DNA of 35,483 bases from IMG/VR virus record IMGVR_UViG_3300008116_000132, positions 1-35,483 of that record. One strand, given 5' to 3'. The notes below the pieces were generated by a model. That model was not told the origin of the DNA. It saw only the letters and a program-made list of their open reading frames with translations, and made no database searches. This stretch comes from a virus. Both the position numbers and the translations under genes were made by a program. This document shows positions 1,497 to 35,483 of this stretch, in pieces. How positions within the stretch are numbered: the stretch's first letter is position 1; every line of letters begins with the position of its first letter.

Positions 1497-1865
1497 TTAA
1501 ATTACATTAATAAAAAGTTTTTCCTTGATTGGCACAATCAATTTGTTTGTTGGATTTGAGTTGGTATCTAAGAATTGAATATTAATCATACCCTCAAACC
1601 TACCCTTTTGTGAAGTGTTCAATTCGGTGAATCTGTATGTAATATAATATTCGTCAGTAGTTTGGTCATATTTTTTTGTTCTTGTGGTTAAAAAACATTC
1701 ACCATTAAGGACTTGATATTGTTCTGTCCCAACATCAAACATTTCAAAAGTTATATCAGAATTCTCTAATAAGTCGTTAAATGATGATTTGTCATTCTTT
1801 CCATCATCAATTAATTTAAGTTTTAAAATTGGGTCTGATGCCCCTTGTCTAATAAAGAATTCCAT
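1497..1865 (-). CDS. BppU-like beta-rich baseplate/tail-fibre-associated protein
   Basis: 122 residues, predicted largely beta. The opening pattern (FIRQGASDPILKLKLIDDG, then an ITFEMFDVG strand) and the closing strand with Tyr/Phe and a polar end resemble the N-terminal immunoglobulin-like domain of BppU/upper-baseplate proteins of other phages, which often sit at a fibre attachment point. This match is from memory of the pattern, not from a search. It is the last gene of the fibre cluster (4550-5995, 2536-4536, 1881-2534, this one). A TATTTATA element ends 4 bases before its ATG, so it may have its own late promoter. A small baseplate or fibre-accessory role is likely; a chaperone is less likely. 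Confidence 0.5.
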   Translation of the reverse strand: MEFFIRQGASDPILKLKLIDDGKNDKSSFNDLLENSDITFEMFDVGTEQYQVLNGECFLTTRTKKYDQTTDEYYITYRFTELNTSQKGRFEGMINIQFLDTNSNPTNKLIVPIKEKLFINVI

Positions 1866-6048: not shown

Positions 6049-6792
6049 ATGAATAATTTTATCAAACAAGTAATAGAAGAGAAATTCGCGTCTAAAGCAC
6101 AACAAGGATTTTTTTATGCACAAGCAGGAAAAGGTGGGAAAAAGGGTAAGAAGTGGAAAGAAATGGCTAAAGAGTTTTCTAAAAAAACTGATTTTGATAA
6201 ACTTCCTGATAAAGTAGAAACTGAGGTTGATGAAATTGTGGATGATAAAGGAAATATAAATAGAAGTAAAAAACCGAGTAATTTAAATACAAAAGGAGTT
6301 ACAGCAAGAAAGACCACTGATGATGTGGTTAAAACCGGCGCGGGTAGTATGGGTATTCATGGTGTTCACGGTACTCATACATCACTAAGATATTGGGCGG
6401 AGGCTGACTTAACAAAAGTTTTAGGTGCGGGAAAAACTGTCCTTAGAAAACCAGAACCTCTTGATTACGATGATGCTGAAAGACATTTTGAAAAAGAATT
6501 AGGTCTTTCTGATGATGAAACTGAAGACAGATTGGCTCAAATCGGTTATGATGAAAACCTACCTGATGATAAAATTCGTTTAGTTGAAAACCCTAAAAAG
6601 TTTATGGAAGAATACATTGAAAGTATTCTAACAAAAAAGAATATGAACAATGATATTGTTTCAAAAGAAACAACTGAAGAAAAAGATATAAACCCTATTG
6701 TTTTAAAACAATTGAATTCACTAAAAAACACATTAAAAAAGAACAACTTAGATATTAATGATGTTCTAAAACATTTAAAAAACGATGAATAA
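6049..6792 (+). CDS. Uncharacterised phage protein, first gene of a rightward structural cluster
   Basis: 247 residues, unrecognised. The N-terminus (MNNFIKQVIEEKF) is a short amphipathic helix of the type seen at the start of many proteins in this window. A basic, Gly/Lys-rich stretch follows (residues 23-45), then a middle segment with GIHGVHGTHTSLRYWAE near residue 102. The acidic C-terminal half ends in a predicted helical Lys/Leu/Asn region. It overlaps the next gene by 8 bases, so the two are translationally coupled. The putative late element upstream and neighbours of structural type suggest a virion or assembly protein, but no function can be given. Confidence 0.6.
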   Translation: MNNFIKQVIEEKFASKAQQGFFYAQAGKGGKKGKKWKEMAKEFSKKTDFDKLPDKVETEVDEIVDDKGNINRSKKPSNLNTKGVTARKTTDDVVKTGAGSMGIHGVHGTHTSLRYWAEADLTKVLGAGKTVLRKPEPLDYDDAERHFEKELGLSDDETEDRLAQIGYDENLPDDKIRLVENPKKFMEEYIESILTKKNMNNDIVSKETTEEKDINPIVLKQLNSLKNTLKKNNLDINDVLKHLKNDE

Positions 6793-9404: not shown

Positions 9405-10631
9405 ATGTCTAAAATAAAAATATTGGCAATACCCTCTGATAATCACGGAGTAGGTAAATACAGAATATTAGACCCATACAAATATATCGGTGAAAATCAC
9501 GGAGACGAATTTCATGTAGATATTTCATTTGATGTTCCTAATGATGATAAATTTTTTGAAGATTATGATGTTGTAGTATTTCATAGTTTTATCCATAAGA
9601 CAAGTCACGAAGATAATGTAAAAAGGATTGAGTGGTTGAAGTCTAAAGGTATTAAAACTGTTGTCGATATCGATGATTTATGGAGTGTTGACCCTAAGCA
9701 CCCCATGTATCAACAAATAAAACAAAACAATGTTCCACAGAAAAAGGTGGAGTTCTTGAGACTTTCGGACTATATCTCAACCACAACACCAATCTTCGCT
9801 GATACAATAAAACAAAGATTAAATTTAAGAAACACATTTGTGTTTCCTAATGCGGTTGATGAAAATGAACCACAATTTCAATCAAAGGTTGAAAAATCTG
9901 AAAAGGTTAGATTTGGTTGGTTAGGCGGTTCTTCTCACTTATATGACTTACAAATAATTGGGTCAGGAATTTCAGGTACATATTCAACATTTAAAGACAA
10001 GGTACAATTTGTACTATGTGGTTTTGATACTCGAGGTAATGTTACTGAATTCGACAAAACAACCGGACAACAAAGACGAAGACCAATATTACCACATGAA
10101 ACCGTATGGTTTCAATATGAAAATATTTTTACTGACAAATATCGTGTCATCGATGAAGATTATAAAAAATATCTTTTAACTTTCTCGGAGACAGAATATA
10201 ATGATCTTGATAAACCATATCGTAGACGATGGACAAGAGACATCACAAAATACGCTCAAAACTACAATATGTTTGACATTTCATTAGCACCACTTATTGA
10301 AAGTGAGTTCAACATGAATAAGTCACAATTAAAAATAATTGAGTCAGGATTCCATAAGAAAGCAGTGATTGCCAGTGGTGTTAAACCGTATACAATGGAT
10401 TTGGTTTCCTCATTAGACCAAGGAGTTTTCAATGATAAAGGTAACTCATTAATTGTTCCACCATCGAAAAATCATAAAGAGTGGGGTAAACATATGAAAC
10501 GTTTAATCGAAAATCCTAATATGATAGAGGATTTGGGTAATAGATTATATGAAACTGTTAAAGACAGGTACTCACTTAAAAATGTAACAAAAGATAGAAT
10601 TCAGTTCTTTAAATCAATAATAAACAAATAA
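9405..10631 (+). CDS. GT-B fold glycosyltransferase (GT4-like)
   Basis: 408 residues in two Rossmann-like halves. The N-terminal half has KILAIPSDNHGVGKYRILDP, DVVVFHSF and TVVDIDDLW. The C-terminal half begins near residue 168 (VRFGWLGGSSHLYDL) and carries the donor-site region PLIESEFNMNKSQLKIIESGFHKKAVIAS, in which E/K/S residues match the usual E-x7-E and 'K..Ea.a.G.PVI.s' pattern of GT4 enzymes. It transfers a sugar from an activated donor; the acceptor is unknown (phage DNA base, virion protein or host surface). It starts a block without TATTTATA elements after a 53-base AT-only gap, so it is presumably expressed early or middle. Two further glycosyltransferases lie at 13124 and 14188. 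Confidence 0.8.
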   Translation: MSKIKILAIPSDNHGVGKYRILDPYKYIGENHGDEFHVDISFDVPNDDKFFEDYDVVVFHSFIHKTSHEDNVKRIEWLKSKGIKTVVDIDDLWSVDPKHPMYQQIKQNNVPQKKVEFLRLSDYISTTTPIFADTIKQRLNLRNTFVFPNAVDENEPQFQSKVEKSEKVRFGWLGGSSHLYDLQIIGSGISGTYSTFKDKVQFVLCGFDTRGNVTEFDKTTGQQRRRPILPHETVWFQYENIFTDKYRVIDEDYKKYLLTFSETEYNDLDKPYRRRWTRDITKYAQNYNMFDISLAPLIESEFNMNKSQLKIIESGFHKKAVIASGVKPYTMDLVSSLDQGVFNDKGNSLIVPPSKNHKEWGKHMKRLIENPNMIEDLGNRLYETVKDRYSLKNVTKDRIQFFKSIINK

Positions 10632-21119: not shown

Positions 21120-21569
21120 ATGAAACAATTAGAAGAAGTTATAAAGAAACATTTGAAGTCCATATCTGAAGGTGAGGATATGAAGCATGAAAACTACATG
21201 TTCTTTGGTAATATTGAACAAATGAAAAGACAATGTGAATTGTTAATGAAAGAAAATCACGATGAAATAGATAGTATCTTAAAAGAACATGATTGGGCAC
21301 AAGACCATATATCTGAAGCAAAAAGTTTGTTGGACCAAGTTTTCGATTTTTTAATGAACAAAACTCAAGGACAATATGATGATACGTTTTTGAATGAAGA
21401 GTATCAGATAGATGAAAGTAAAAATTGTCCAACAGACCCTGCAAAATGGGCAGCATCAAAGGCAAAAGCTAAAGGTAAATTTAAGGTCTACCCCTCAGCA
21501 TATGCAAATGGGTTTGCTGCAAAAGATTATAAATCAAAGGGTGGTCGTTGGAAAAAGTGTAAAAAATAA
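21120..21569 (+). CDS. Conserved phage protein with YPSAYANG motif
   Basis: 149 residues. The N-terminal half (to residue 85) is helical, opening MKQLEEVIKKHLKSIS, then HENYMFFGNIEQMKRQCELL and DWAQDHISEAKSLLDQVFDFLMNK. The C-terminal part, CPTDPAKWAASKAKAK then FKVYPSAYANGFAAKDYKSKGGRWK, is a highly conserved module in uncharacterised proteins of aquatic phages. The basic Trp/Tyr-rich end may bind nucleic acid or another virion protein. The gene is followed directly by another protein of the same class (21574). Biochemical role unknown. Confidence 0.65.
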   Translation: MKQLEEVIKKHLKSISEGEDMKHENYMFFGNIEQMKRQCELLMKENHDEIDSILKEHDWAQDHISEAKSLLDQVFDFLMNKTQGQYDDTFLNEEYQIDESKNCPTDPAKWAASKAKAKGKFKVYPSAYANGFAAKDYKSKGGRWKKCKK

Positions 21570-23577: not shown

Positions 23578-23607
23578 AAAAAACCCCCGATTTCTCGGGG
23601 GTTTTTA
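23578..23607 (-). terminator. Strong intrinsic terminator after the capsid gene
   Basis: CCCCCGA/TCGGGGG stem of 7 bp with a 4-base loop, flanked by A and T runs so that it can work in both directions. The stem extends by A-T pairs. It ends the head operon 20 bases past the capsid stop. The most GC-rich structure in the window. Confidence 0.9.
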
Positions 23608-23626
23608 TATACTAAGACAATTAATA

Positions 23627-25354
23627 TTATCTCAAGGTATCCAAGCTGAATGTAGCCAAACCTTTTACATCGATTATACCAAAGTAACGGTTGTTAACCA
23701 TTTTCTTAGCGTAACGTGTCATGATACCTTTGATAGGAGTCATGTTAAATGGATTGTACATAGTTGGAGTCAACTGTAGAGGTACGTATGGTGCGTAGAT
23801 GTAACCAGCGTCCAATAGAGACTTACCTTTGTGACCAATCAATACTTTACCAGCTGGGAAGTAAGGATCACGGAACACTTGGTAACGACCAGCTAGTGTA
23901 CCGATTTTCTCAATACCCATGTTGTATTGATCCTGCTCAGGTCCTGCGTTTGATACGTGGAAGTATTCCAAATCATCGAATACTGCAGAAACTTCAGAAG
24001 AAACTACAATCCAGTTAGCTCCACCTCTCAAAGTGGTTTTGTGGATTTGTGCAGAAACTTGGTTAATTTTGGTGATTAGAGTTTGATTCCAATCTTTTTG
24101 AGTGTATCCTACTAAAGTAGCACCAGAGGTTCCACCATATTTCCACTCGTTGTAATCCCACTTAGCTTTCCAAGCAGCACCCTTACGTAGGTCACGTAAA
24201 ATTTCACGGTCAACCTCAGCAGCGATTTGCTCAGATAACAATGCAGTTAACTCAGCCTCAGCGTCGATGTTGTGGAATGCACTTACGTCTTGTGCCAATT
24301 CAGGAGACCAGCTAGCTCTTAACTTTCTTTCAGTAACTGAAACAGTTACAGAAGACAAGTCGAAAGATACTTCACCGATTTCTTCTTCGAATTCAAGAGT
24401 TGCATACTGACGATAAGTAAGTACGAAATCAGTTCCAATCAAAGTAGAACCCGCAACAGTGTGGTTAGAGAAACCAGAAGTTGATGAGTAAGTCTGAAGG
24501 TCTACGTTCAAGTAGATAGCTCCTTCTTCGTCGCAGATATCGTTGTATTTGCTAAGACCAGAACCACTTTTTTGACCATACTCAACAATACCTTTACCGT
24601 ATTTCTGAGTTACGATGTTGAATGGTAAAGATGCACCAGACTGAACTTGTGCAGAAGCAACTTGCAATGAAGCCAAGAACTCTTCGGTATCCATTTCGTT
24701 ACCATTTGCTCCAACAATTTTACCTTGTCCTGCTTTAGTGAAACCAGTTACTTTCAAGATTACACTTGAAAGAGTGTCACCAGTTGCATACACTACAGCA
24801 CTACCTTCAGCTCCTGCAGAGAAAGAGTGAAGAGAAGTACCTGTTAAAGATGCGGTAGTAAATGCACCTTTAGAATAATCGAAAAGACCTTCAGATGCGT
24901 CATCACCTTCTTCGTAGAAACGATCATAAAGGTTTCTTGCGTCTGCACCATAACCAGCGGTTACAGAGTCAGTAGTGTTAGGATATCCGAATGGTGCGTA
25001 GTGTGCTCCAGAGTTTCTATCCTGAATTTTAGGTACGAAGTAGAACAATTTACCGATAGGTAAGTTCATTGCTTGTACTGATACGATGTCGTTTGCTAAC
25101 AACTTAGAGAATACACGACGGATAATTGGGAATACCACGGTCTCGAAAGAACCAGAAGCATCAGATACTGCTGCTTCGTTGATTAAATAAGACGCTTGGT
25201 TTTCATACAATTGCGCGATGTTATCTTTTTGATGGCCGTCAAGACCTTCTAGGAAACCTAAGTTATCCCATTTTTTGATGGTATCTTCTTTGATAACACG
25301 TAGGTGCTTAAGACCGATGTTACCAACCATACCTGATTCTAATAATGCTCCCAT
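23627..25354 (-). CDS. 23: Major capsid protein, T4 gp23-like
   Basis: 575 residues; the HK97-fold hexamer subunit of the head. Typical features are the N-terminal delta peptide, then SYLINEAAVSDASGSFETVVFPIIRRVFSKLLANDIVSVQAMN and PIGKLFYFVPKI. Downstream are LRASWSPELAQDVSAFHNIDAEAELTALLSEQIAAEVDREILRDL and later NWIVVSSEVSAVF, all characteristic of gp23. Residues 58-60 (INE) before A61 match the (L/I)-x-E cut site of gp21-type proteases, so the mature protein likely starts at A61. No TATTTATA element precedes it; it should be read from the scaffold promoter, 41 bases after the scaffold stop. Base use is visibly less AT-biased than in neighbours, as expected for very high expression. Confidence 0.97.
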   Translation of the reverse strand: MGALLESGMVGNIGLKHLRVIKEDTIKKWDNLGFLEGLDGHQKDNIAQLYENQASYLINEAAVSDASGSFETVVFPIIRRVFSKLLANDIVSVQAMNLPIGKLFYFVPKIQDRNSGAHYAPFGYPNTTDSVTAGYGADARNLYDRFYEEGDDASEGLFDYSKGAFTTASLTGTSLHSFSAGAEGSAVVYATGDTLSSVILKVTGFTKAGQGKIVGANGNEMDTEEFLASLQVASAQVQSGASLPFNIVTQKYGKGIVEYGQKSGSGLSKYNDICDEEGAIYLNVDLQTYSSTSGFSNHTVAGSTLIGTDFVLTYRQYATLEFEEEIGEVSFDLSSVTVSVTERKLRASWSPELAQDVSAFHNIDAEAELTALLSEQIAAEVDREILRDLRKGAAWKAKWDYNEWKYGGTSGATLVGYTQKDWNQTLITKINQVSAQIHKTTLRGGANWIVVSSEVSAVFDDLEYFHVSNAGPEQDQYNMGIEKIGTLAGRYQVFRDPYFPAGKVLIGHKGKSLLDAGYIYAPYVPLQLTPTMYNPFNMTPIKGIMTRYAKKMVNNRYFGIIDVKGLATFSLDTLR

Positions 25355-25394
25355 TTCTATTTTGGTTTTTTTGGTTTTTTTATTTTATTATTAT

Positions 25395-26573
25395 TTATTT
25401 TATTTTACCCATCAAGTCTTTCATTCTCTTGAATTGTGGGTTTTCATATGCTTTTGATTCAGACAACACTTGTTGTGAACTTGAGCTCTGAGGGGTTGAT
25501 GAAAGTCTATCAACCACACTTTCTGTAACTGGTTTTTTAACTCCCAATTCAGACTTTATTGAGTTGAATAGGTTTTTGGATTCGTTCATTGTTGAAACAG
25601 AATCGAATCTTTTCAAAATATTCAATTTTTCTTGTTTTGTTGTTGAATGTTCGGTGAACAAACGAGTAGCGTACGCTAAATTTGCGTTGAAAACTGCAAC
25701 TTCATTAAGTTTCTCTTTGAACAACACTAACGCCTTTTTGTATTCTGAGTTTTGTTTCTTTAGTTTCTCAACTTCCTCATTTACCATTTCGTGACGTCCA
25801 GCCTTTGCAAAAAACTTGTCTGCAGGACCTCTAACGCCAGCCGCGTAAGTTCTTGATGCTTCAGTGGCTTCAATTTCTTTTTCATCACCTTCATCTTCCA
25901 ACTCGATTTCGTACATTGTTTCTTCCATTTCTGGGTCCACATCTCCTTCGTTAAATTCGTCTTCTTCTAATTCGATTTCGTACATGGTTTCTTCCATTTC
26001 TGGATCCACATCTCCTTCGTTAAATTCAAACTCTTCCTCTTCATCGAGTTTAATGATGTACTCATCACCGTCCATTTCTAATTCGATATCAGCACCGTCT
26101 TTTTTAACAACGATACCATCTTCAGGTTTCATTGCTTTAAAAACTTTAAGGACTTCATCGTCGGATGCTCCTGTCATGTCCATAACATCTTCATCAGAAG
26201 ACATGTCATCGTCCATTCCCATTTCGTCATCCATCCCCATTTCATCATCCATTCCCATATCATCTTCAGACTCATCATCTTCAGAATCCATAGAATCGAT
26301 ACCTTTCATTGGTTCTTCATTATCGAGGTCGTCCATATTTTCTTCGTCACCTTCGTCTTCAGACTCTTCATCGTCTTCGTCCTCTGGTTGCTCTGACATA
26401 TCTTTTTCCTCTTCTTCAGGAAGATCATCTTCCTCTTTTTCTGACTCTTTCAGCAATTCATTAAGTTCTTCCTTCATTGTAGAAGCAAGTATACCTTTTG
26501 CATTTTGCTTAACTGCCTCCTCAAGTGTTTGCACTTGAAGTAACGCTTGTTCTAAAATTGATTTTTCAGTCAT
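25395..26573 (-). CDS. 22: Prohead core/scaffold protein, gp22-like
   Basis: 392 residues, extremely acidic. Residues about 45-245 are Asp/Glu tracts, including three MGMDDE units and two copies of EFNEGDVDPEMEETMYEIEL. A helical coiled region follows (about 265-355, VEKLKKQNSEYKKALVLFKEKLNEV). The C-terminus ends QFKRMKDLMGKIK. It lies just upstream of the capsid gene, where gp22 is in T4. Acidic, repeat-rich scaffolds that fill the prohead and are then cut by gp21 are the norm. The acidic part may also play the role of gp67/68. Its element at 26593-26600 would also serve the capsid gene. Confidence 0.85.
   Translation of the reverse strand: MTEKSILEQALLQVQTLEEAVKQNAKGILASTMKEELNELLKESEKEEDDLPEEEEKDMSEQPEDEDDEESEDEGDEENMDDLDNEEPMKGIDSMDSEDDESEDDMGMDDEMGMDDEMGMDDDMSSDEDVMDMTGASDDEVLKVFKAMKPEDGIVVKKDGADIELEMDGDEYIIKLDEEEEFEFNEGDVDPEMEETMYEIELEEDEFNEGDVDPEMEETMYEIELEDEGDEKEIEATEASRTYAAGVRGPADKFFAKAGRHEMVNEEVEKLKKQNSEYKKALVLFKEKLNEVAVFNANLAYATRLFTEHSTTKQEKLNILKRFDSVSTMNESKNLFNSIKSELGVKKPVTESVVDRLSSTPQSSSSQQVLSESKAYENPQFKRMKDLMGKIK
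25904..26030 (-). repeat. Two direct repeats (69-bp period) in the scaffold gene
   Basis: Near-identical copies start at about 25904 and 25973 and encode the NEGDVDPEMEETMYEIELE unit twice. The spacing is a multiple of 3, so a 23-residue unit was duplicated in frame. Confidence 0.85.
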
Positions 26574-26592
26574 TTGATTTGTTTTATTATCC

Positions 26593-26600
26593 TATAAATA
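26593..26600 (-). promoter_or_regulatory. TATTTATA element, 19 bases before ATG 26573
   Basis: Sense strand CACAATATTTATAGGATAA; a member of the longer-leader group. It lies downstream of the terminator at 26678-26704, so a start here would drive scaffold and capsid as a separate, strongly expressed unit. Confidence 0.55.
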
Positions 26601-26677
26601 TTGTGATTTTATAAAAAAATCGTTCTAACATCATTTATATCTAAATAAATGTTAAGATTTATTATTTTAAACAAAAT

Positions 26678-26704
26678 AAAAAACCCTCGTGTGAGGGTTT
26701 TTTT
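26678..26704 (-). terminator. Intrinsic terminator after the 169-aa protein gene
   Basis: CCCTC/GAGGG stem with GTGT loop, A run before and T run after on both strands. It lies 16 bases past the stop at 26720 and isolates the scaffold-capsid unit. Confidence 0.85.
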
Positions 26705-26719
26705 AAAATTAAAATTAAA

Positions 26720-27229
26720 TTATTTTAAAGTTTCCTGACCTAAATCTTGAGTTGTCACATTTTGTGCCGGTGCGCAATTAAGTTCTTGAACAAGAATACC
26801 CTGTAATAATTTTGAATACATCAATGCACGATCATTCTCTGATCCTGCTACTGGTCCCTGTACACTTATTCTAACAGTGGAACCACTTAATGCCGTAGGG
26901 TTATTACAAAAAAACCTTAAATTTTTAATTTCTTGTCCAATTGTATCAGACCCCTTACGGTTATTATACGCGTCGAAAAATTTTAAATCTCTAACACCGA
27001 TTACTACTCCTCCCTTAGGATTCGATTCAATACTTTCAATTCTTACTAAAGTCCCACGGCCGTTAGGTTCTGCAACATCGGTAAATAATAAAACATTTTT
27101 ACCAATAATTCTATTTTTTAATTTTGTTAAGTCAACCGCTTGGGGTGCGGGTGCAGTCTGCTCACTAACTACCTTTCTGATATAATTTTTTAATTCAGAT
27201 TCGGTTAGTCTTATAATATTTTTTTTCAT
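26720..27229 (-). CDS. LTESEL-type protein A (putative prohead internal protein)
   Basis: 169 residues. Residues 1-22 (MKKNIIRLTESELKNYIR...) are almost identical, in DNA too, to the N-terminus of the next gene; the rest differs. The remainder is beta-rich: LKNRIIGKNVLLFTDVAEPNGRGTLVRIES, GVVIGVRDLKFFDAY, TVRISVQGPV. The residue order (two strands, then a DLKFFDAY/DLSTIDAR-like helix start) still suggests shared ancestry with protein B. L-T-E in the N-terminus fits a gp21-type cut site, and the place between protease and scaffold is where T4 carries core proteins. It is probably an internal head protein; unknown. Confidence 0.6.
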   Translation of the reverse strand: MKKNIIRLTESELKNYIRKVVSEQTAPAPQAVDLTKLKNRIIGKNVLLFTDVAEPNGRGTLVRIESIESNPKGGVVIGVRDLKFFDAYNNRKGSDTIGQEIKNLRFFCNNPTALSGSTVRISVQGPVAGSENDRALMYSKLLQGILVQELNCAPAQNVTTQDLGQETLK

Positions 27230-27235
27230 TTTGTT
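27171..27235 (-). repeat. 65-bp 5' cassette, copy A
   Basis: Matches 27735-27799 at 64 of 65 bases: 6 bases of leader, ATG and about 18 further codons. Confidence 0.9.
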
Positions 27236-27253
27236 TATAGTTATTTTTTTTTA

Positions 27254-27793
27254 TTAAGGTGTAAAATCTTTTTCATCATCTATATCGGGAGCACAACTAC
27301 TAGCATTGAATAAAATATCTGTAAGTGTCTTATTAGTTACATCAATCATTGACGGGAATGCTTTAGCTTCCTTCGCCTGTCCATTCATGTAGTTCCCTTG
27401 TACTCCTCGAGCAACTAGGTAATATGGGTCTTGACATCCTTTCCATGTTAGGGTTTGCACTTTGAATTGTGACACATCTCCCCATGCTGTTTGATTATTT
27501 CCTCTAGCATCTATGGTTGACAAATCTCTACCAGTTAACACTACTTGAGTTCCCGATACTGTAACACTATCAACTAAAAACGTAGTTAAAACTTCTCCAG
27601 ATTTCTTCGTAAAATAATTACTATATGCACTACCCTGTAACTTACCGTCAACGGTCAATTGAATCTTCTTACCAACAACTTGAGATTTTATTGATTCTAA
27701 ATCAGGAGTTTTCGCTTGAGCTTGTTCTTTTATAACCTTTCTGATATAATTTTTTAATTCAGATTCGGTTAGTCTTATAACATTTTTTTTCAT
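27254..27793 (-). CDS. LTESEL-type protein B (putative prohead internal protein)
   Basis: 179 residues. It has the same N-terminal 22 residues as protein A except N-V for N-I and K-E for S-E. It is then beta-rich: IQLTVDGKLQGSAYSNYFTKKSGEVLTTFLVDSV, VVLTGRDLSTIDARGN, KVQTLTWKGC, and ends SSCAPDIDDEKDFTP. Two Cys near the end could form a bridge. It is co-transcribed with protein A (24-base gap). The putative late element lies 17 bases before ATG. Function unknown; a head-core or minor capsid role is inferred from position. Confidence 0.6.
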   Translation of the reverse strand: MKKNVIRLTESELKNYIRKVIKEQAQAKTPDLESIKSQVVGKKIQLTVDGKLQGSAYSNYFTKKSGEVLTTFLVDSVTVSGTQVVLTGRDLSTIDARGNNQTAWGDVSQFKVQTLTWKGCQDPYYLVARGVQGNYMNGQAKEAKAFPSMIDVTNKTLTDILFNASSCAPDIDDEKDFTP

Positions 27794-27799
27794 TTTGTT
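27735..27799 (-). repeat. 65-bp 5' cassette, copy B
   Basis: Copy of 27171-27235, differing at one base (I to V codon). Identity stops abruptly outside the cassette. Confidence 0.9.
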
Positions 27800-27810
27800 A
27801 ATTGTTTTAA

Positions 27811-27818
27811 TATAAATA
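27811..27818 (-). promoter_or_regulatory. TATTTATA element, 17 bases before ATG 27793
   Basis: Sense strand AAGTATTTATATTAAAACA; longer-leader group. Confidence 0.5.
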
Positions 27819-27838
27819 CTTATTGGTTTATAAAAATT

Positions 27839-28522
27839 TTATTTGGATAAAAATTTATCAATGTTCCCCATTAATTTTTTCATTCTATCATCCACAATTG
27901 GTTTTTCTTCAACACCCTCTTGATATTGGTCTCTTTCTGATGGGTCAGAAAAAATGTATGCCCCTGGTGTTGATGGTGATGAAACCAAATCAAAACATAC
28001 CAGTTCAAAATCTTCTTGAACAATGTTTTGACCTTTTATGTTTTTAAGTGAACCCACACCTCTTGAGGAAATCCCTAATGTTGCCCCATTCATTATTAAC
28101 ATTGCAGCTTGGTCTCCTTTGGTTGATACAATCCCCATTTTTTTCCATCCGGGTGATGTGAATAATTTTATCTTCCCCATTAATATTTTACCATCCCACC
28201 ATGTTTCCATAATAGAGTGAGAAACTCTATCCAAATCAATAAGTGATGATGAGGGGTGATTCAATTCATTTAACGCTCCTCCCTTTTTTATTAAATTTTG
28301 ATATTTTTCGTTTTCTCTCTTTAATAAATTTTCAGGATAAATTCGACCATTTTTATTTGGTGTATCGAATTTTTGCAAAACAGCATAAAGAATGAGGTCT
28401 TCAGAAAAGTCCACATTCTTCATTTCAGAAATTATTTTTTTATTGTCTTCGGGAGATACGTGACCGGCATCGTATTCGATTAAAATTCCTTTGCCAGTTT
28501 CATTTGGTCCTAATATCTTCAT
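27839..28522 (-). CDS. 21: Prohead maturation protease, T4 gp21-like
   Basis: 227 residues; serine protease that cuts scaffold and capsid precursors during head maturation. NGRIYPENLL (58-67) is the usual first signature of the family. H89 in ALNELNHPSSSLIDLDRVSHSI and S152/S153 in TLGISSRGVGSL are the catalytic His and Ser region; an Asp/Glu lies after, in DFELVCFDLVSSPSTPGAYI. The C-terminus DDRMKKLMGNIDKFL carries the motif shared with the scaffold, perhaps for co-packaging into the core. Family preference is (L/I)-x-E. The gene order protease, scaffold, capsid is T4-like, with two extra genes inserted. Confidence 0.92.
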   Translation of the reverse strand: MKILGPNETGKGILIEYDAGHVSPEDNKKIISEMKNVDFSEDLILYAVLQKFDTPNKNGRIYPENLLKRENEKYQNLIKKGGALNELNHPSSSLIDLDRVSHSIMETWWDGKILMGKIKLFTSPGWKKMGIVSTKGDQAAMLIMNGATLGISSRGVGSLKNIKGQNIVQEDFELVCFDLVSSPSTPGAYIFSDPSERDQYQEGVEEKPIVDDRMKKLMGNIDKFLSK

Positions 28523-28541
28523 CTATTTAGTAATTATACTA

Positions 28542-28549
28542 TATAAATA
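28542..28549 (-). promoter_or_regulatory. TATTTATA element, 19 bases before ATG 28522
   Basis: Sense strand GATGTATTTATATAGTATAA; longer-leader group. Confidence 0.5.
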
Positions 28550-28563
28550 CATCGATATATAAG

Positions 28564-28989
28564 TTATTTTTTGTTTTTATTAAAGTTAAAAAGGTTTTTA
28601 TTGGATAGACCATTTTCAATTATGGTTTCAATAATACTTTTTACCATTATTTTTGAAGACTTTGATTTAACATCAAAAAAACTATCAACATATAATGTTA
28701 TTTCTAAATTCATAAAAGACCTTTTTTCAATCTTTATTCCTTTAGTTTTAACATCCAAATCCACAATACATTGCGGTTTAAAATTTTCATTATTCAAATT
28801 ATAGACGATTTCTTTAATTAGTCTTCTTGTTCTACTAATCAAAAAATCAAAATCATCTTCATCATTTTTTGGTTGTACCCACGAATTAAGTTTTAAATAA
28901 ATTGTTTTTAAATTTTTAAAATCTACTGTTCCGTATCCTATTTTTACATCTTTACATTCACCTAAAGGAATATATTTTCCTGTTTTCAT
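28564..28989 (-). CDS. Uncharacterised small protein in the head module
   Basis: 141 residues, mixed alpha/beta and basic. GYGTVDFKNLKTIYLKLNSWVQP forms a strand pair, DFLISRTRRLIKEIVYNL a helix, QCIVDLDVKTKGIKIEKRSFMNLEITLYVD strands, and an Asn/Lys-rich tail follows. It lies between the portal-side genes and the protease; upstream is the bS21 intergenic region. I do not recognise a family. It could be a head-core or neck component. No sure promoter motif; an element-like TATTTATT occurs about 45 bases before ATG. Confidence 0.5.
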   Translation of the reverse strand: MKTGKYIPLGECKDVKIGYGTVDFKNLKTIYLKLNSWVQPKNDEDDFDFLISRTRRLIKEIVYNLNNENFKPQCIVDLDVKTKGIKIEKRSFMNLEITLYVDSFFDVKSKSSKIMVKSIIETIIENGLSNKNLFNFNKNKK

Positions 28990-29066
28990 TATTTATTTCA
29001 TATTCTACTATTATTTTTATGGTGTAAATAAAAAATAAATAAAAAATTTTGAAATAAAAAACATAT

Positions 29067-29089
29067 TAAGTATTATTCTGAAATACTTA
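29067..29089 (+). promoter_or_regulatory. Hairpin in the bS21 leader
   Basis: AAGTATT/AATACTT plus one flanking T-A pair gives 8 bp around a 7-base loop, ending 6 bases before ATG 29096. It would cover the ribosome landing region, a plausible place for translational control; ribosomal protein genes are often self-regulated. Weak (A-T rich) but well positioned. Confidence 0.4.
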
Positions 29090-29095
29090 TATGTT

Positions 29096-29281
29096 ATGAT
29101 CATAATTAAAATCGAAAAAAACATTGAATTTGCACTTAAACTTTATAAGAATAAAGTTAATAAGACAAAACAAATTCAGAAACTAAGAGAGAGACAAGAA
29201 TTTGTTAAACCATCTGTTAAAAGACGTGACCAAATCTTGAAGGCGACTTACATACAAAAAATAAAAAATGGTCTTGATTAA
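29096..29281 (+). CDS. rpsU: Ribosomal protein bS21 homologue
   Basis: 61 residues, basic. MIIIKIEKNIEFALKLYKNKVNKTKQIQKLRERQEFVKPSVKRRDQILKA contains the hallmarks of bS21: a short first strand 'i.v....ie.Al...k.k', then a central 'LR.R..f.KPS.kRR' and a basic helix. Length is as usual (55-75). bS21 sits on the 30S platform near the 3' end of 16S rRNA. Phage-encoded bS21 is known in several aquatic phages. It is the only + strand gene in the head module, between the 245-aa gene (convergent) and the 141-aa gene (divergent), with its own leader. Its last residues lie inside the terminator palindrome. No Shine-Dalgarno sequence precedes it. Confidence 0.85.
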   Translation: MIIIKIEKNIEFALKLYKNKVNKTKQIQKLRERQEFVKPSVKRRDQILKATYIQKIKNGLD

Positions 29282-29297
29282 TCAAGACCATTTTTTA
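29262..29297. terminator. Perfect 36-bp palindrome, bidirectional terminator and shared gene end
   Basis: Exact inverted repeat centred between 29279 and 29280: A/T runs outside, TGGTCTTGAT/ATCAAGACCA inside. The stop codons of bS21 (+) and the 245-aa gene (-) overlap by TTAA at its centre. Each gene's last five codons encode KNGLD because the coding ends are mirror images. Confidence 0.92.
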
Positions 29298-30015
29298 ATT
29301 CTACCAAACTGTGGTAATTAATTCTCGAGGGTTTTTTACTGTTAACCTCTTGTTTAACTTTACTCAATTTGTCTTTTATATCTGAGTCACTTGATTCTGA
29401 AATCAAAGTGTCAATTTTTTCATTTAAACTTTCCTTCAATTCCAATGTTTTCTTTTCAATCACATCACCTGGCATGGACAGAATATCCTTCAATGTTTGT
29501 TTTTGTTCTTCTGTCAAATTGTTATTGTAAAGTACATTGAAATTATTTACCAACACTGCCTGTAAAAGATTTTCGTTGTTTGTATGTAATGTCTTCTCCA
29601 ATACAACCGTTTCCTTTTTTGTGGTTAAATGTTCAAACAATTTTTTCTTAGAAATCACTTTCTTGTCAATATTGTTCAATGTATCTTCTTCAGAAAGTTG
29701 GTCTAGTATCGAATAGATTTCGTTTTCTTCAACATCCACATTTTTTAATGATTCATTTAAAGTTTTTGAAAACTCTTTTACTTTCTTAGATTTTGTTTTT
29801 AGAACTGAAGACAACTCTTCAACAAATAATCTTGCAACTTCCTTATCTTCAAAATATTTGTTTTCTATTTGTTCATAGAACAAGTACATTTCTCTAAAGT
29901 CATTATTTCCCTTTATTGCCTTTAAAATGTTCTTCATCTCCTTTTTATTGTTAGATGAATAAGATTCGGTAAGTTTCCCTAATATTTTTGTTTTTAATTT
30001 TCCAAAAGTGTTCAT
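29278..30015 (-). CDS. Helical protein after the portal (possible prohead core component)
   Basis: 245 residues, nearly all helical and Lys/Glu-rich, with no Cys and no enzyme motif. The N-terminus GKLKTKILGKLTESYSSN contains L-T-E, a possible gp21-type cut site, and resembles other N-termini in this window. Internal repeats of a 'LxESLxxK' kind suggest coiled coils. It lies 2 bases after the portal stop, where T4 carries core genes 67 and 68, so a prohead core role is the best guess by position only. It ends inside the palindromic terminator with KNGLD. Confidence 0.55.
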   Translation of the reverse strand: MNTFGKLKTKILGKLTESYSSNNKKEMKNILKAIKGNNDFREMYLFYEQIENKYFEDKEVARLFVEELSSVLKTKSKKVKEFSKTLNESLKNVDVEENEIYSILDQLSEEDTLNNIDKKVISKKKLFEHLTTKKETVVLEKTLHTNNENLLQAVLVNNFNVLYNNNLTEEQKQTLKDILSMPGDVIEKKTLELKESLNEKIDTLISESSDSDIKDKLSKVKQEVNSKKPSRINYHSLVELKNGLD

Positions 30016-30017
30016 TT

Positions 30018-31826
30018 CTAATCGTTTAATATATCTTTTATTTTATTTTCTATTTCATAAATATTCTGTTGTGCCCTATCCATATCAAATAAATCGGTAA
30101 ACTCCATTTTTTCTTCACCTAACATTCCAAGAATTTTCGATTTCCTTGATTCACTTAATGGTTCTGCTCCACCGCCGGCTGGAGGAGGGGGTGGTGGTGC
30201 ACCACCCATATCTCCACCTGGTGCTGCACCGGCTTGTCCAGAATCCATTGCTTCCCTTTCTTCTTCAGGAATACCATATTTTGCATCTACTTCATCAAAT
30301 ACACCCGAACGTTTAATTACATTTTGTGTATTCTGTAATTCAAATCCCATTGCTCTTTCAATACGTTGTTGTTGCAAATCAAGAATTACTTCACTATCAC
30401 TCATACCAAGAATGTTTTTCTTCGCCCATGTGTGTGAAACAGGAAGGATACCAACTTGAGATTGGTCGGATGTTGCATCTTTATAAAGTGTAACCTTCTC
30501 CTTCCATTGTTCGATTTTTAATAAATCAGATTGTGCGGATGGGTTTGTTAATGATAATGAGAAATTACCTAACTCATCTTCTAAACCTAAAAGATAAAGA
30601 TGTATTAGTGCAATTTTATTTAATTCCTGTATTAATGATTTTTGTATTCTATTAATGGTTCTTGCAAATCTAATATCCATTAACGCCAATGTTTTACCTT
30701 CAGCAACCACATCTTCAAAACCTAAAAACGCCTTAGGGATACGTAATGCCGCCAACATTTTCTTTTGGATATATTCGATATCCGCAATTTCACCTAAGTT
30801 TTGTGCACCAGGTAAAGTTTCAATTGGATTGGATTGTGCTGGGTCACGAACAGGTATGAAATAATCTTGGTCAACCGCCATCTGATTGTATCTCATATCA
30901 ACCTGACCATTTCTTGGGTCGGCAATTTGGTCTCTTTTAAATTTATTGGCAACACGTTGAACATATGATTCAATATCTTTGTCATCCATATTCCCCACAA
31001 ACACTTTGAATACACGTCTTTCAGGTGCTCTCGATGTTCTATAGATTAACATCGCATCTTCTGACAACAATAATTGTTTCCATATTCTTCTAATTTTTTC
31101 TAACATAGAAGTACCATATGGAAGTTTTCTATCATCGCCAAGTAATCTGAAATGGGCAATTTCCCAAGACTGAAATTCCATTTCTTTATTTTTCCATTGG
31201 AATCTTAATTCTTTTGTTGGGATTTTTATATCTCTATCATTACCCGGTGTTTTTGATGCCGCACCTTCAATTCTTTCAATTTCTATATTTGGTAGTTGTT
31301 GACATCCAATTATACCCTTTTCAGGGTCAACTTTAAGATAGACGAAATCATCACCATACTTACATAGACCTCTAGCCCACATTTGTAAGTTTGTGTTGAT
31401 ATCCAATTTTTCTTTAAACAAGTCCTCCAATATTGTTTTAACCCTATCTGATTCTGAGTATATGGTTAAAATCTCCCCCTTTTCGGAAAGAGTTGTAGAT
31501 TCTTCTGCGTATATATCTAATGCCGCAGATACCTCAGGAGTAAACTCCATTGATTCATAATCATAATATGCTGCCAATCTGTTTGGTTCATAATAAACGG
31601 ATTGATTATATAGAGATTGGTCTAATTTAGTCCACTTATCTGCAATATATTGTGATTGTTGTGCCAGTAATAGAGCCTTTTCATACTCCTCTCTACTATC
31701 TGTTTTTAATAATTCGTCTTTCGAAAAATTAAACGACGGGGTGTTATTCTCAGGTTTTGTTTTATTACCCGGAAAACCAAAAACTCTTGTTAATTTTTGA
31801 AAAACTGTAAGATTATTCTCTGCCAT
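30018..31826 (-). CDS. 20: Portal protein, T4 gp20-like
   Basis: 602 residues (T4 gp20 is 524). Family hallmarks in order: LYNQSVYYEPNRLAAYYDYESMEFTPEVSAALDIYAEEST near the N-terminus; LDINTNLQMWARGLCKYGDDFVYLKVD; EIERIEG; then EIAHFRLLGDDRKLPYGTSMLEKIRRIWKQL, the well-known gp20 core used in phage surveys; RTSRAPERRVFKV; and RIPKAFLGFEDVVAEGK. Forms the dodecameric DNA entry ring. The C-terminal extension holds Ala/Gly/Pro tracts (a run of six prolines) and helices, absent in T4. The late element with core AAACTATTTATATA ends 3 bases before ATG. Confidence 0.95.
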   Translation of the reverse strand: MAENNLTVFQKLTRVFGFPGNKTKPENNTPSFNFSKDELLKTDSREEYEKALLLAQQSQYIADKWTKLDQSLYNQSVYYEPNRLAAYYDYESMEFTPEVSAALDIYAEESTTLSEKGEILTIYSESDRVKTILEDLFKEKLDINTNLQMWARGLCKYGDDFVYLKVDPEKGIIGCQQLPNIEIERIEGAASKTPGNDRDIKIPTKELRFQWKNKEMEFQSWEIAHFRLLGDDRKLPYGTSMLEKIRRIWKQLLLSEDAMLIYRTSRAPERRVFKVFVGNMDDKDIESYVQRVANKFKRDQIADPRNGQVDMRYNQMAVDQDYFIPVRDPAQSNPIETLPGAQNLGEIADIEYIQKKMLAALRIPKAFLGFEDVVAEGKTLALMDIRFARTINRIQKSLIQELNKIALIHLYLLGLEDELGNFSLSLTNPSAQSDLLKIEQWKEKVTLYKDATSDQSQVGILPVSHTWAKKNILGMSDSEVILDLQQQRIERAMGFELQNTQNVIKRSGVFDEVDAKYGIPEEEREAMDSGQAGAAPGGDMGGAPPPPPPAGGGAEPLSESRKSKILGMLGEEKMEFTDLFDMDRAQQNIYEIENKIKDILND

Positions 31827-31829
31827 GTA

Positions 31830-31837
31830 TATAAATA
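31830..31837 (-). promoter_or_regulatory. TATTTATA element, 3 bases before portal ATG 31826
   Basis: Sense strand AAAACTATTTATATACATG; the same extended core as at 21108-21115. Confidence 0.55.
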
Positions 31838-31869
31838 GTTTTGATTATAATATAAACTTTAATTCCCAA

Positions 31870-33651
31870 TTAGGAAATGTTTTTCTTTTTACCGAACAAC
31901 CACGAATATTCTTGATATGATGATTTTGGATTGTTCATTGGGTTATCCTGATGATAAAAAGACGGGTCGGTTTGTATGGAACCGATAGGGTCTAATGATG
32001 TACCATAAGAATAAAATGTTTTGTTTGGTTCATATGTTCTCTCAGACATCACCCAAGACTCCAACATTGCCTTATTTTTTGATTCGTTTCTTTGTAATTG
32101 ATTGAAACAAATATCTCCAGCATATAATGCCATCGATAAACTCATAATGGCGTCATCATGTGCACCCTTCATATGGTCAGGTCTACCATTAATATAAACA
32201 AATGTGTTTAGTTCGTTAAGTAATCTACTGGATCTTACTTGAAACCCCTTTCTTAGTTGTTCTTCAAATGCAGCAACAATCTGAGTTCGTTTGTTGTTAA
32301 AATTTAAACCGGGGATTTTGTCCATTACCTTCTTATTGAACTCCCATATATTTTGTGTATTGATACCATCTATATATAGGTGTTTATAATTCATTTCTTG
32401 TAGTTTTCTTGATGTCGCAACACCCATTCCTCCAGTAATATCAATTACAATAAATGCGTCATACAATACACCCCATTTATATGCAATTGATGCCAAATCG
32501 TCCGGTGGAATTTTACCAACGTATTCTGCGACCTGTTCTCTATCATCGAAATCAATTAAACTGATGGATGAAAAATCCTCACTATCCCCTCTACTAACAT
32601 CTACACCCATTATATAACGATGACCCTGTATTGGTTCTTTCCATTGCCAAAAAGTTCCCTGCATGTATTTTTCGATGGGAACTCTAATCATGTTTTTGGC
32701 AATGTTTTCTTGAACATCATTTGGAATTACACCATCACCTGAACCCAAGAAGTCACATTCCAATTCTTGAGCAATTTTCCTTCTATCATATTTGAACTTT
32801 TTTGACATGGATTCAAACCAAGAAGAAAATGGTTTGTAACCCATTTCTTCATATTCTTGGTATTTGGTTATGTCAAAATCATACATAACGACTTCTTCAT
32901 CATTATATTGTTCTCTATTCAACATATAATGAGTAATGTCACTACATTTAACCCATCTTAAATCCTTCGTGTATCTTGGGTCTTTAAACCATCTTAAATC
33001 CGTAATATGGAAATCGTTCATTTTACGAATTGCTTGGTCATATACACCATAATAAATTGGATCGTATCCATTTGGTGTAGAGATTAATATAATCTTACCA
33101 CCTGTTGATAATGACGCCATAGATGCAGCCCAAAAATCGTCACCTGCTTCAATATATGCAGCTTCGTCAAACACCAAAATTGTTGGGGTATATCCTCGAA
33201 GTGCATCCGCGGATGTTGCAACCGCCTTTACCTCACAACCATTATTTAATCTAAATCTACTTTCTGAGTTCTTGTCAGGTGAAAACCCCACGTTTATCCA
33301 TTCAGGCCATTGGTCTAAAAAGTTTCGTATTTTATTAGCCATTTCAATTGCGGTGTCTCTCTTGTTCGCAATCACCAAAACTCTCTCAGGATTTTCGGGT
33401 TTAGCCAATTGTAATCTTCTTGAAATCCATGCAGAGGTTACCGTGGAAACACCCGCTTGTCTATATTTTCTTGTTATGTTTTCATTGTAGTTTTCATAAT
33501 CCTGAATCAATTGAACTTGGTCAGGGAAAAGTTCCAATGGTACATATTTCTTTTGTGTGTTATCGTATGTTTGTAAGTATGTTCTTAACGCATATGGCGC
33601 GTCTTTCATTATTTTTGCATATTCTGCTAATTGTTCTATTCTCGAATTCAT
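31870..33651 (-). CDS. 17: Terminase large subunit, T4 gp17-like
   Basis: 593 residues from ATG 33651; the frame opens 11 codons earlier, but the extra residues overlap the terminator hairpin and are unlikely. ATPase half: adenine/Walker A variant RKYRQAGVST (61-70) and Walker B LVFDEA (159-164), followed by the coupling motif ILISTPNG (188-195). RNase H-like nuclease half: GVDVSRGDSEDFSS with D351, IVIDITGG with D404 and HDDAIMSL with D499/D500. It packages DNA at the portal. In T4, tail sheath and tube genes (18, 19) follow gene 17; here portal follows directly. Confidence 0.96.
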   Translation of the reverse strand: MNSRIEQLAEYAKIMKDAPYALRTYLQTYDNTQKKYVPLELFPDQVQLIQDYENYNENITRKYRQAGVSTVTSAWISRRLQLAKPENPERVLVIANKRDTAIEMANKIRNFLDQWPEWINVGFSPDKNSESRFRLNNGCEVKAVATSADALRGYTPTILVFDEAAYIEAGDDFWAASMASLSTGGKIILISTPNGYDPIYYGVYDQAIRKMNDFHITDLRWFKDPRYTKDLRWVKCSDITHYMLNREQYNDEEVVMYDFDITKYQEYEEMGYKPFSSWFESMSKKFKYDRRKIAQELECDFLGSGDGVIPNDVQENIAKNMIRVPIEKYMQGTFWQWKEPIQGHRYIMGVDVSRGDSEDFSSISLIDFDDREQVAEYVGKIPPDDLASIAYKWGVLYDAFIVIDITGGMGVATSRKLQEMNYKHLYIDGINTQNIWEFNKKVMDKIPGLNFNNKRTQIVAAFEEQLRKGFQVRSSRLLNELNTFVYINGRPDHMKGAHDDAIMSLSMALYAGDICFNQLQRNESKNKAMLESWVMSERTYEPNKTFYSYGTSLDPIGSIQTDPSFYHQDNPMNNPKSSYQEYSWLFGKKKNIS

Positions 33652-33654
33652 ACT

Positions 33655-33662
33655 TATAAATA
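33655..33662 (-). promoter_or_regulatory. TATTTATA element, 3 bases before terminase ATG 33651
   Basis: Lies immediately after the T run of the terminator. A transcript for terminase that begins after the terminator would have to be leaderless or nearly so. Confidence 0.6.
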
Positions 33663-33663
33663 T

Positions 33664-33689
33664 AAAAAAAGGTGGATTAACCACCTTTT
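33664..33689 (-). terminator. Intrinsic terminator between the 450-aa gene and terminase
   Basis: AAAAGGTGG/CCACCTTTT stem around a 5-base loop with a T-rich tail in minus sense, starting 3 bases past the stop at 33693. Confidence 0.85.
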
Positions 33690-33692
33690 AAA

Positions 33693-35045
33693 TTATCTTC
33701 TGACTGGTACGTCCCCGTCATCTTCGTCTTCATCATCACCAAAATCAATTGTTCCACTAATACCAATTGATTTTAAATAACTGTCGATGTCACTATCTTC
33801 TGTTTCTTCAGTTGCGTCATCTAAATCATCTCTAAACATCGCTAATGAATCCTCATATTCTTGGTCGTTAAACATTTTATTGATCCCGTCCATTAATTCA
33901 TTCATCATTCTTTTTCCACTATTTGAACCGGATAACACCTCTTTCATAAAGACCAAGAATTTTTTTGCTGGTAATTTAAAAATCTCAAGTAGTAAGTAAC
34001 TTTGTAATTCTCGTTTGTTTTCATCTGTAAGAATATCTTCAGGAAACTGGTTTCTAATTCTATCCCAAATAGCTGGACCCAATCTTAAATCCCACATTTC
34101 TTTTTCCAAAGTGTCTTCTGTACTCTCAATATCTGTAAAGTCACCTTCGGGTTTACCCTGTAATGCAATTAATTCTATTGTTCCTTTGATTAATTCATGT
34201 ACTAAAACTGGAAAATTAATACCTCTTGCAGTAACTTTTCCTGATCCACCTTCTTCCTCGGGACCTTCAGCACTTTCTTTACCTGCGGCAGAACCACCCA
34301 TGTTTTTAATCATTTGATCACTAATCTGCCAATATGTTATATCATTTATTGACATTAAAGTACCATATAAATTTAAGATATTTGGATTGCCAGTAATTTG
34401 TTCCAATCTTTCAGGTACCATATGAAACATATAATGACCCTTTTTCGAGGCACCCTGAATGATTGCATTTATCATTCTTCTTTTTGCTCTTTCTAAATCT
34501 AAATTTTGTAGTTCATTGAAAATTTCAATCTCATTTTCAATTTCAACTTGTTCAGGATTTTCTTCATCCTCATTGTCATGTTCGAAATCACTCATATCAA
34601 TTTCATCCATCCCAACTATTTTTGCGTCAAATTCAACTGCTCCTTCGGGAATACCCATTTCTTTCATTACAAGTTCAATTGCCAACTGTTCTAATTCTTG
34701 TCTATGGTTTCTTTCAATTTGAACAACGGTATTATGAGCATTCATCAATGTCATTTGTAATTGCATCACACCCTCCATTCCTCTTTGTATGGGGGTCCTG
34801 TCACCAAGATATCTTCTTAAATTCGATACAACTTGTCTATATCTTTCTGATGCTAAAACTTCTTGGAAATTCTGATTTGGTTCTTGACCTGTAGTTGGAA
34901 ATGGAACTTTTTTTAACGGAGTTTCACCTTGAGATAATTTATCCTGTAGACCTTGGTCGGGTCTATCAGGTGAGTCAAAATCCATTGCCATTTCTTTAAT
35001 GTTATTTTCAATTAAAGATAACAAATTCTTTTTACTTATTCGCAT
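33693..35045 (-). CDS. Uncharacterised 450-aa head-module protein
   Basis: 450 residues. The N-terminus MRISKKNLLSLIENNIKEMAMDF is an amphipathic helix of the 'RI.K..L..LI...I.EM' kind common at the start of phage structural proteins of aquatic T4-like groups. Then come a Pro/Gln linker, helices (YRQVVSNLRRYLGDRTPIQRGMEGVMQLQMTLM), an acidic stretch (DFEHDNEDEENPEQVEIENEIEIF), NAIIQGASKKGHYMFHMVPERL, a Gly/Glu-rich loop and an acidic C-terminal tail ending PVRR. No enzyme motif. It lies upstream of terminase, with a terminator between, and overlaps the gene at the right edge by 14 bases. Possibly a minor head or vertex protein; unknown. Confidence 0.6.
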   Translation of the reverse strand: MRISKKNLLSLIENNIKEMAMDFDSPDRPDQGLQDKLSQGETPLKKVPFPTTGQEPNQNFQEVLASERYRQVVSNLRRYLGDRTPIQRGMEGVMQLQMTLMNAHNTVVQIERNHRQELEQLAIELVMKEMGIPEGAVEFDAKIVGMDEIDMSDFEHDNEDEENPEQVEIENEIEIFNELQNLDLERAKRRMINAIIQGASKKGHYMFHMVPERLEQITGNPNILNLYGTLMSINDITYWQISDQMIKNMGGSAAGKESAEGPEEEGGSGKVTARGINFPVLVHELIKGTIELIALQGKPEGDFTDIESTEDTLEKEMWDLRLGPAIWDRIRNQFPEDILTDENKRELQSYLLLEIFKLPAKKFLVFMKEVLSGSNSGKRMMNELMDGINKMFNDQEYEDSLAMFRDDLDDATEETEDSDIDSYLKSIGISGTIDFGDDEDEDDGDVPVRR

Positions 35046-35483
35046 TCTTCTTTTCTTTTAACGCTTTTGGTTTAGATCTTTCACCTGGTTTCGGAGACCA
35101 AGGAGTTGCTGGTTTAGTACCAGGGTCTACTTTTGGTTTTGTTGGAGCTGGTTTAGTTATGGTACTAGAATCTTGAACATCTAAAATTGCTTCGTAACTC
35201 ATAAATTCAGGAATACCATTATGTCCCTTTTTAACATTTGGACCAACTTCGACCTCGTTAAGTTTAGTTTTAATCAATTCCATAATTTCATTTTTTGATG
35301 TAAAACTATGAAAATTTTCGTTAGCTAGATTTTCAACCCATTCTTTTACATCTTTTTTCTTTCTTAAAAGTTTGAAATCTTCAGGGTCAATCTTACCATT
35401 CTTGTTTTTATCTATCTTTTTTTGGTTACCTTTTAATTCTTCCTTAACCTCTTTCTTCTTTCTTAAAAGTTTGAAGTCTTCGG
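35032..35483 (-). CDS. EF-hand-like repeat protein, 5' end outside the window
   Basis: Open from the right edge to a stop at 35032, at least 150 residues. The frame runs through ATG 35283, which is internal and not the true start. At the visible N-terminus, DKNKNGKIDPEDFKLLRKKK is an EF-hand-like loop (D-x-N-x-N-G-x-I-D-x-x-D), and EDFKLLRKKK at the very edge is the end of a previous copy, so at least two tandem units exist. The middle has MELIKTKLNEVEVGP. The C-terminal half is a Pro/Thr/Lys linker ending in KEKKNANK. Such repeats bind calcium in many extracellular proteins and are frequent in aquatic phage virion proteins. It overlaps the 450-aa gene. Confidence 0.6.
   Translation of the reverse strand, partial: EDFKLLRKKKEVKEELKGNQKKIDKNKNGKIDPEDFKLLRKKKDVKEWVENLANENFHSFTSKNEIMELIKTKLNEVEVGPNVKKGHNGIPEFMSYEAILDVQDSSTITKPAPTKPKVDPGTKPATPWSPKPGERSKPKALKEKKNANK
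35360..35483 (-). repeat. Direct repeat of about 25 bp encoding DFKLLRKKK
   Basis: Bases near 35360-35385 and 35459-35483 match closely and encode the end of two EF-hand-like units about 33 residues apart. Confidence 0.75.

Follow-up and report, generated by a model that had tools for sequence, protein, structure and literature searches.

Introduction

Among the systems described so far, the closest to the locus analyzed here are the Bacteroidetes phages reported by Chen et al. 2022 (PMC9723584), which are assigned to clades a-e, have predicted Bacteroidetes hosts and carry a reverse-strand bS21 gene within the region encoding TerL, portal, protease and MCP. In these phages, bS21 keeps an aromatic residue at position 54 and is expressed with the late (structural) genes, its opposite-strand neighbour was named bS21_CN (fam498), and the bS21 region is not transcribed as a single operon. 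The same authors hypothesized that the phage protein replaces host bS21 and confers a preference for phage messages, read the conserved phage C-terminus as important for substitution in ribosomes, and also raised the packaging of bS21 in the virion (PMC9723584). The bS21 of pelagiphage HTVC008M is known to enter E. coli 70S ribosomes, whose activity falls to ~5% (Mizuno et al. 2019, PMC6375957). In F. johnsoniae, bS21 is essential and required for initiation on most mRNAs (PMC9976891), and rpsU, which has an extended Shine-Dalgarno (SD) sequence, is autoregulated by bS21-free ribosomes; McNutt et al. 2023 (PMC9976891) speculated that this autoregulatory loop could counter a phage takeover.

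The window, that is, the whole stretch of 35,483 nucleotides analyzed in this work, is a further contig of this already described bS21-phage kind. It shares with the phages of Chen et al. the location of bS21 on the strand opposite to TerL, portal, protease and MCP, a convergent neighbour and the aromatic residue at position 54 (F. johnsoniae numbering). Already published are this arrangement of genes in phages of Bacteroidetes, the hypothesis that the host copy is replaced and the conservation of the tyrosine stacking on the anti-Shine-Dalgarno (ASD). The text of Chen et al. (PMC9723584) mentions neither the SD-less leader nor the overlap of bS21 with its neighbour, and neither the promoter-like motif nor the coding hairpin common to both genes; the SD-less leader set against the host feedback, this hairpin and the motif are what goes beyond the literature examined. 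With the Flavobacteriales rpsU/bS21 (PMC9976891) the phage gene has in common the protein family and the ASD-stacking tyrosine but, unlike them, it has no extended SD in any leader examined and belongs to a separate clade. With pelagiphage HTVC008M (PMC6375957) it has in common the condition of an aquatic myovirus carrying bS21, entry into 70S ribosomes being shown for HTVC008M only; the HTVC008M bS21 is of a different lineage, acquired from an alphaproteobacterial host.

Results and Discussion

Genome setting

The window belongs to a large, T4-like phage that most likely infects Bacteroidota; as regards named phages related by DNA, a short portal match to cyanophages was found and nothing else. 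The features relevant to this work are the following.

23627..25354, minus strand: major capsid protein, context (PHROG 138, E 5.5e-66)
27839..28522, minus strand: prohead protease, context (PF03420, E 6.8e-23)
28564..28989, minus strand: hypothetical gene adjoining bS21, divergent (no family above cut-off)
29060..29095, plus strand: leader without an SD, a local inverted repeat lying immediately upstream of the ATG (z -2.75; repeat not conserved in other clades)
29085..29091, plus strand: promoter-like ACTTATA, differing from the phage motif TATTTATA by one base (motif TACTTATA begins 12 nt before the ATG)
29096..29281, plus strand: phage bS21 gene, 61 aa, ASD-stacking aromatic residue Tyr52 (PF01165, 7jil match, two-helix model)
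29259..29300, no strand assigned: palindromic, terminator-like hairpin encoding the ends of both convergent genes, both KNGLD (palindrome, folding, covariation)
29278..30015, minus strand: 245-aa convergent gene, product all-helical and of no known family (4-base overlap with bS21)
30018..31826, minus strand: portal protein, gp20 type, context (PF07230, E 3.5e-76)
31870..33684, minus strand: terminase large subunit TerL, context (PHROG 2, E 2.5e-38)

The bS21 gene lies on the plus strand, embedded in leftward genes spanning 23627 to 35283 (MCP, protease, portal and TerL among them). A reading of the window made earlier from its sequence only (hereafter, the sequence-only reading) had described it as the sole plus-strand gene in about 12 kb of head genes; indeed, between 23627 and 35283 no second supported plus-strand gene was found.

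Identity, conservation and origin of the phage bS21

It is as good as certain, judging from its sequence, that the 61-residue product is bS21, as the sequence-only reading had proposed. The HMM search that had been indicated as a check gave a match of the ORF at 29096-29281 to Pfam PF01165 (Ribosomal_S21) with 41.2 bits, above the cut-off of 27 (E 1.4e-10, profile search), and the closest solved relative is chain z of 7jil (E 4.8e-13), a structure that Chen et al. 2022 (PMC9723584) identify as the F. johnsoniae ribosome. The AlphaFold model comprises two helices (10-35 and 39-57; mean pLDDT 89), and Foldseek returned seven matches for it, weak (E above 3) and all to ribosome or 30S entries. 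Relatives are encoded on 128 IMG/VR stretches, the identical protein occurring on at least four of them among the matches listed, and dN/dS between relatives is ~0.10-0.12, which shows that the gene is under purifying selection. Family, conservation, selection and position all mark it as a working phage gene. A chance ORF is ruled out by the family match, the 128 relatives and the dN/dS of ~0.1.

The ASD-stacking residue is Tyr52, corresponding to Tyr54 of F. johnsoniae; at the equivalent position, 38 out of 40 distinct phage proteins have Y and the other two F. The constant differences between phage and host proteins include two in the N-terminal helix, with V in place of F at residue 21 of the window protein and K in place of G at residue 25, in agreement with Chen et al. 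2022 (PMC9723584).

In the phylogenetic tree constructed with 40 distinct phage and 59 Bacteroidia proteins, a single branch (SH-aLRT 100) separated all the phage copies from the host ones, and their stem was long (1.23 changes per column). The phage clade is placed within Bacteroidia bS21 in this tree, which, with 64 columns and Bacteroidia sequences only as hosts, points to no particular donor. A recent transfer from a sampled host was considered and found no support, the genome scan, which detects close relatives only, having returned one Bacteroidales MAG at 61%.

The leaders of phage bS21 and host rpsU genes

The SD strength of each leader was scored as the most favourable pairing (in kcal/mol) that its last 22 bases can form with CACCUCCUUUCU, values below -13 kcal/mol being taken as an extended SD. 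The window bS21 leader scores -1.6 kcal/mol, i.e., it has no strong SD, and the best predicted ASD pairing over the 39 gene starts of the window is only -5.7 kcal/mol, so that the phage is SD-less throughout, which bears out the earlier statement that its genes use leaders devoid of an SD. The same picture holds for the 44 distinct phage bS21 leaders, a few of which rest on a probably misassigned start codon: their median is near zero and their minimum -5.3 kcal/mol, so that none of them has the extended SD of the autoregulated Flavobacteriales rpsU. Inspection by eye of 35 phage bS21 leaders with corrected starts revealed no SD.

As regards the host rpsU genes encoding a bS21 with 70% or higher identity to that of F. 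johnsoniae, 11/14 score from -17.5 to -19.6 kcal/mol and 3/14 near -2.5. In a broader Bacteroidia sample, 8/31 rpsU leaders are below -13 kcal/mol, which implies that the loop is absent from some hosts and that the argument based on feedback may not apply to the true host of this phage.

The inverted repeat preceding the ATG (29060-29095) was also considered as a conserved regulatory RNA and rejected, since it is not conserved in other clades and hence at most clade-specific.

A promoter-like motif at a fixed distance from the start codon

The most enriched 7-mer upstream of the window genes is TATTTAT (12/39 genes, versus 0.58 expected). In the relatives, TATTTATA lies upstream of 107 of 360 gene starts and its reverse complement upstream of 3, the distance to the ATG being mostly 11-13 or 22-34 bases, with the reservation that these genes are not independent; in four further large contigs, examined outside their head genes, the distances were similar and the numbers small. 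Out of 35 distinct bS21 leaders, 34 contain the motif or a variant of it, beginning in nearly all cases 11-13 bases before the ATG; a match anywhere in the leader is found in 36% of shuffled leaders.

We hypothesize that the motif is a -10 element, even though a translation signal kept at a fixed distance could look alike. If it is a -10 element, its location at 11-13 nt would imply leaderless or nearly leaderless messages, that of bS21 included. The T4-type late promoter TATAAATA was considered and discarded, since the gene starts are marked by TATTTATA, the opposite orientation. Within the window, TATTTATA is also found 11-13 or 23-28 nt before the starts of the genes at 1497-1865 (-), 4550-5995 (-), 6049-6792 (+), 21120-21569 (+), 25395-26573 (-), 27254-27793 (-), 27839-28522 (-) and 30018-31826 (-).

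A hairpin shared by the ends of two convergent genes

The bS21 gene and the convergent 245-aa gene overlap at their stop codons by four bases (TTAA), and the 42 bases from 29259 to 29300, 95% palindromic, span both gene ends. They fold with -19.2 and -20.5 kcal/mol on the two strands, have an A-stem-T build and are listed by the terminator scan on the minus strand. The palindrome is in phase with both reading frames, and for this reason two unrelated proteins end in KNGLD. Both the convergent overlap (4 or 8 bases) and the hairpin common to the two genes were found in 80/80 viral bS21 loci.

The hairpin is conserved at synonymous sites and exhibits compensatory changes. Over 20 distinct sequences, 95% of the pair cells are standard and 4 of the 12 pairs are changed on both sides; none of 500 shuffles reached the observed covariation, the numbers being modest and the sequences related. 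Out of 48 distinct bS21 genes, 47 use GGT for the glycine of the C-terminal KNGL, whose leucine is always encoded by CTN, the other leucines being mostly encoded by TTA or TTG. Phage bS21 proteins usually end in KNGL plus one or two residues, and the exceptions (e.g., KDGPRN) largely keep the pairing. Since the hairpin encodes the C-terminus, the conservation of the phage C-terminus is, at least in part, a nucleic-acid constraint; this represents a warning that, contrary to the 2022 reading, it does not purely reflect protein function. The bS21 of close hosts ends in KDSLES or similar, so that the protein background may have favoured an end encoded by the hairpin.

The form of the hairpin suggests a probable terminator, acting on both strands where two convergent late units meet, a role which fits the finding that the region is not one operon (Chen et al., PMC9723584).

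The convergent gene (29278-30015, minus strand) is probably the bS21_CN of Chen et al., with which it agrees in position and strand. It is strictly paired with phage bS21: in a survey that started from the neighbour, a strict motif found bS21 in 51/80 loci, the others having a diverged bS21 or a contig that ends at, or within 90 bases of, the stop of the neighbour, and no case of a neighbour without bS21 was observed among the loci whose contig continues far enough. The search for a function of the convergent protein gave no convincing family, fold or PDB match.

Possible role of the phage bS21

The reading we lean towards, on the basis of the comparisons reported above, is that the phage protein would replace host bS21, keep the ASD hidden and bypass the host feedback. 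The replacement of the host copy is plausible because the pelagiphage bS21 enters E. coli 70S ribosomes (PMC6375957); against it, that protein left the E. coli ribosomes nearly inactive (PMC6375957). According to the preferred reading, phage bS21 would probably be made late, with the head genes and from the phage promoter-like element, and would fill vacant or exchanging bS21 sites of the host 30S subunits. Since the aromatic ASD-stacking residue is kept, the ASD should stay hidden and the ribosomes should stay tuned to SD-less messages, a condition that would suit a phage whose own messages are SD-less. The phage leader lacks the extended SD, and thus the synthesis of the protein should not depend on bS21-free ribosomes and would escape the feedback: it might be carried out by ordinary, bS21-replete ribosomes, and would not be throttled when ribosomes are full. 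By refilling bS21-free ribosomes, the phage protein should in turn repress host rpsU and lower the synthesis of host bS21, if autoregulation works as in F. johnsoniae, and the net effect would be that the ribosome pool is moved from host to phage bS21 without feedback. At the 3' end of the gene, the hairpin would probably terminate both convergent late units, and its sequence fixes the last residues of both proteins.

The signal missing from the phage gene is the one by which many hosts sense bS21-free ribosomes, and its absence would give a concrete, testable reason for a phage to carry bS21; no paper making this point was found in the literature covered, which was mostly open-access, with few subscription papers or preprints. 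Against an escape from feedback, the loss of the SD may simply reflect the SD-less state of all the phage genes. A more extended version, in which a feedback-blind bS21 shuts down host bS21 synthesis, is translated from a (nearly) leaderless late message and ends in a shared coding terminator dictating both C-termini, appears to us possible but rather doubtful as a whole. A feedback-blind bS21 would be predicted to affect one host gene, rpsU.

A different possibility is that ribosomes carrying phage bS21 are specialised, the protein altering mRNA choice toward phage messages and its phage-specific N-terminal helix contacting phage mRNA. The constant differences in helix 1 (those at residues 21 and 25; see also Chen et al.) speak for it, and late messages might have an unusual 5' end in common, the late genes sharing the promoter-like motif close to the ATG and at a constant spacing. 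However, an SD is lacking in host messages as well as in those of the phage and the phage protein retains the residue that hides the ASD; hence, there is no evident difference to read and no obvious preference through the SD; host rpsU is the one message clearly differing. The bias of ribosomes to phage messages put forward in the sequence-only reading finds no sequence support for the same reason, and we regard such a specialisation as unlikely.

The simplest alternative is one of plain supply, according to which the phage copy would keep ribosomes complete while host bS21 is lost or the expression of host genes is shut off, leaving their specificity and regulation unchanged. That F. johnsoniae cannot do without bS21, which initiation on most of its mRNAs requires (PMC9976891), as well as the strong conservation of the phage protein, would fit it; the phage-specific residues of helix 1 and the long stem of the phage clade would be left without explanation, and we consider it decidedly improbable. 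We give very little credit to the idea that phage bS21 poisons host ribosomes, or, carried by the virion, acts as soon as infection starts, in spite of the drop of E. coli ribosome activity to ~5% caused by the pelagiphage protein (PMC6375957) and of the packaging raised by Chen et al. 2022 (PMC9723584). Indeed, late phage protein synthesis needs active ribosomes and it is in that phase that relatives express bS21; moreover, the phage protein retains the residues of known importance for ASD binding.

Other observations on the window

The A-stem-T build (A-run, G+C stem, T-run) recurs on the minus strand at 23579-23606, after the MCP gene, and at 26678-26703, between the genes at 25395-26573 and 26720-27229; the A-stem-T build is also seen at 33667-33689. 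The last of these terminator-like hairpins includes the GTG (33684) given as the start codon of the TerL ORF, and the real TerL start is probably further downstream than this GTG. The rightward gene block contains a glycosyltransferase gene at 9405-10631 (+), matching PHROG 7162 (E 6.1e-43).
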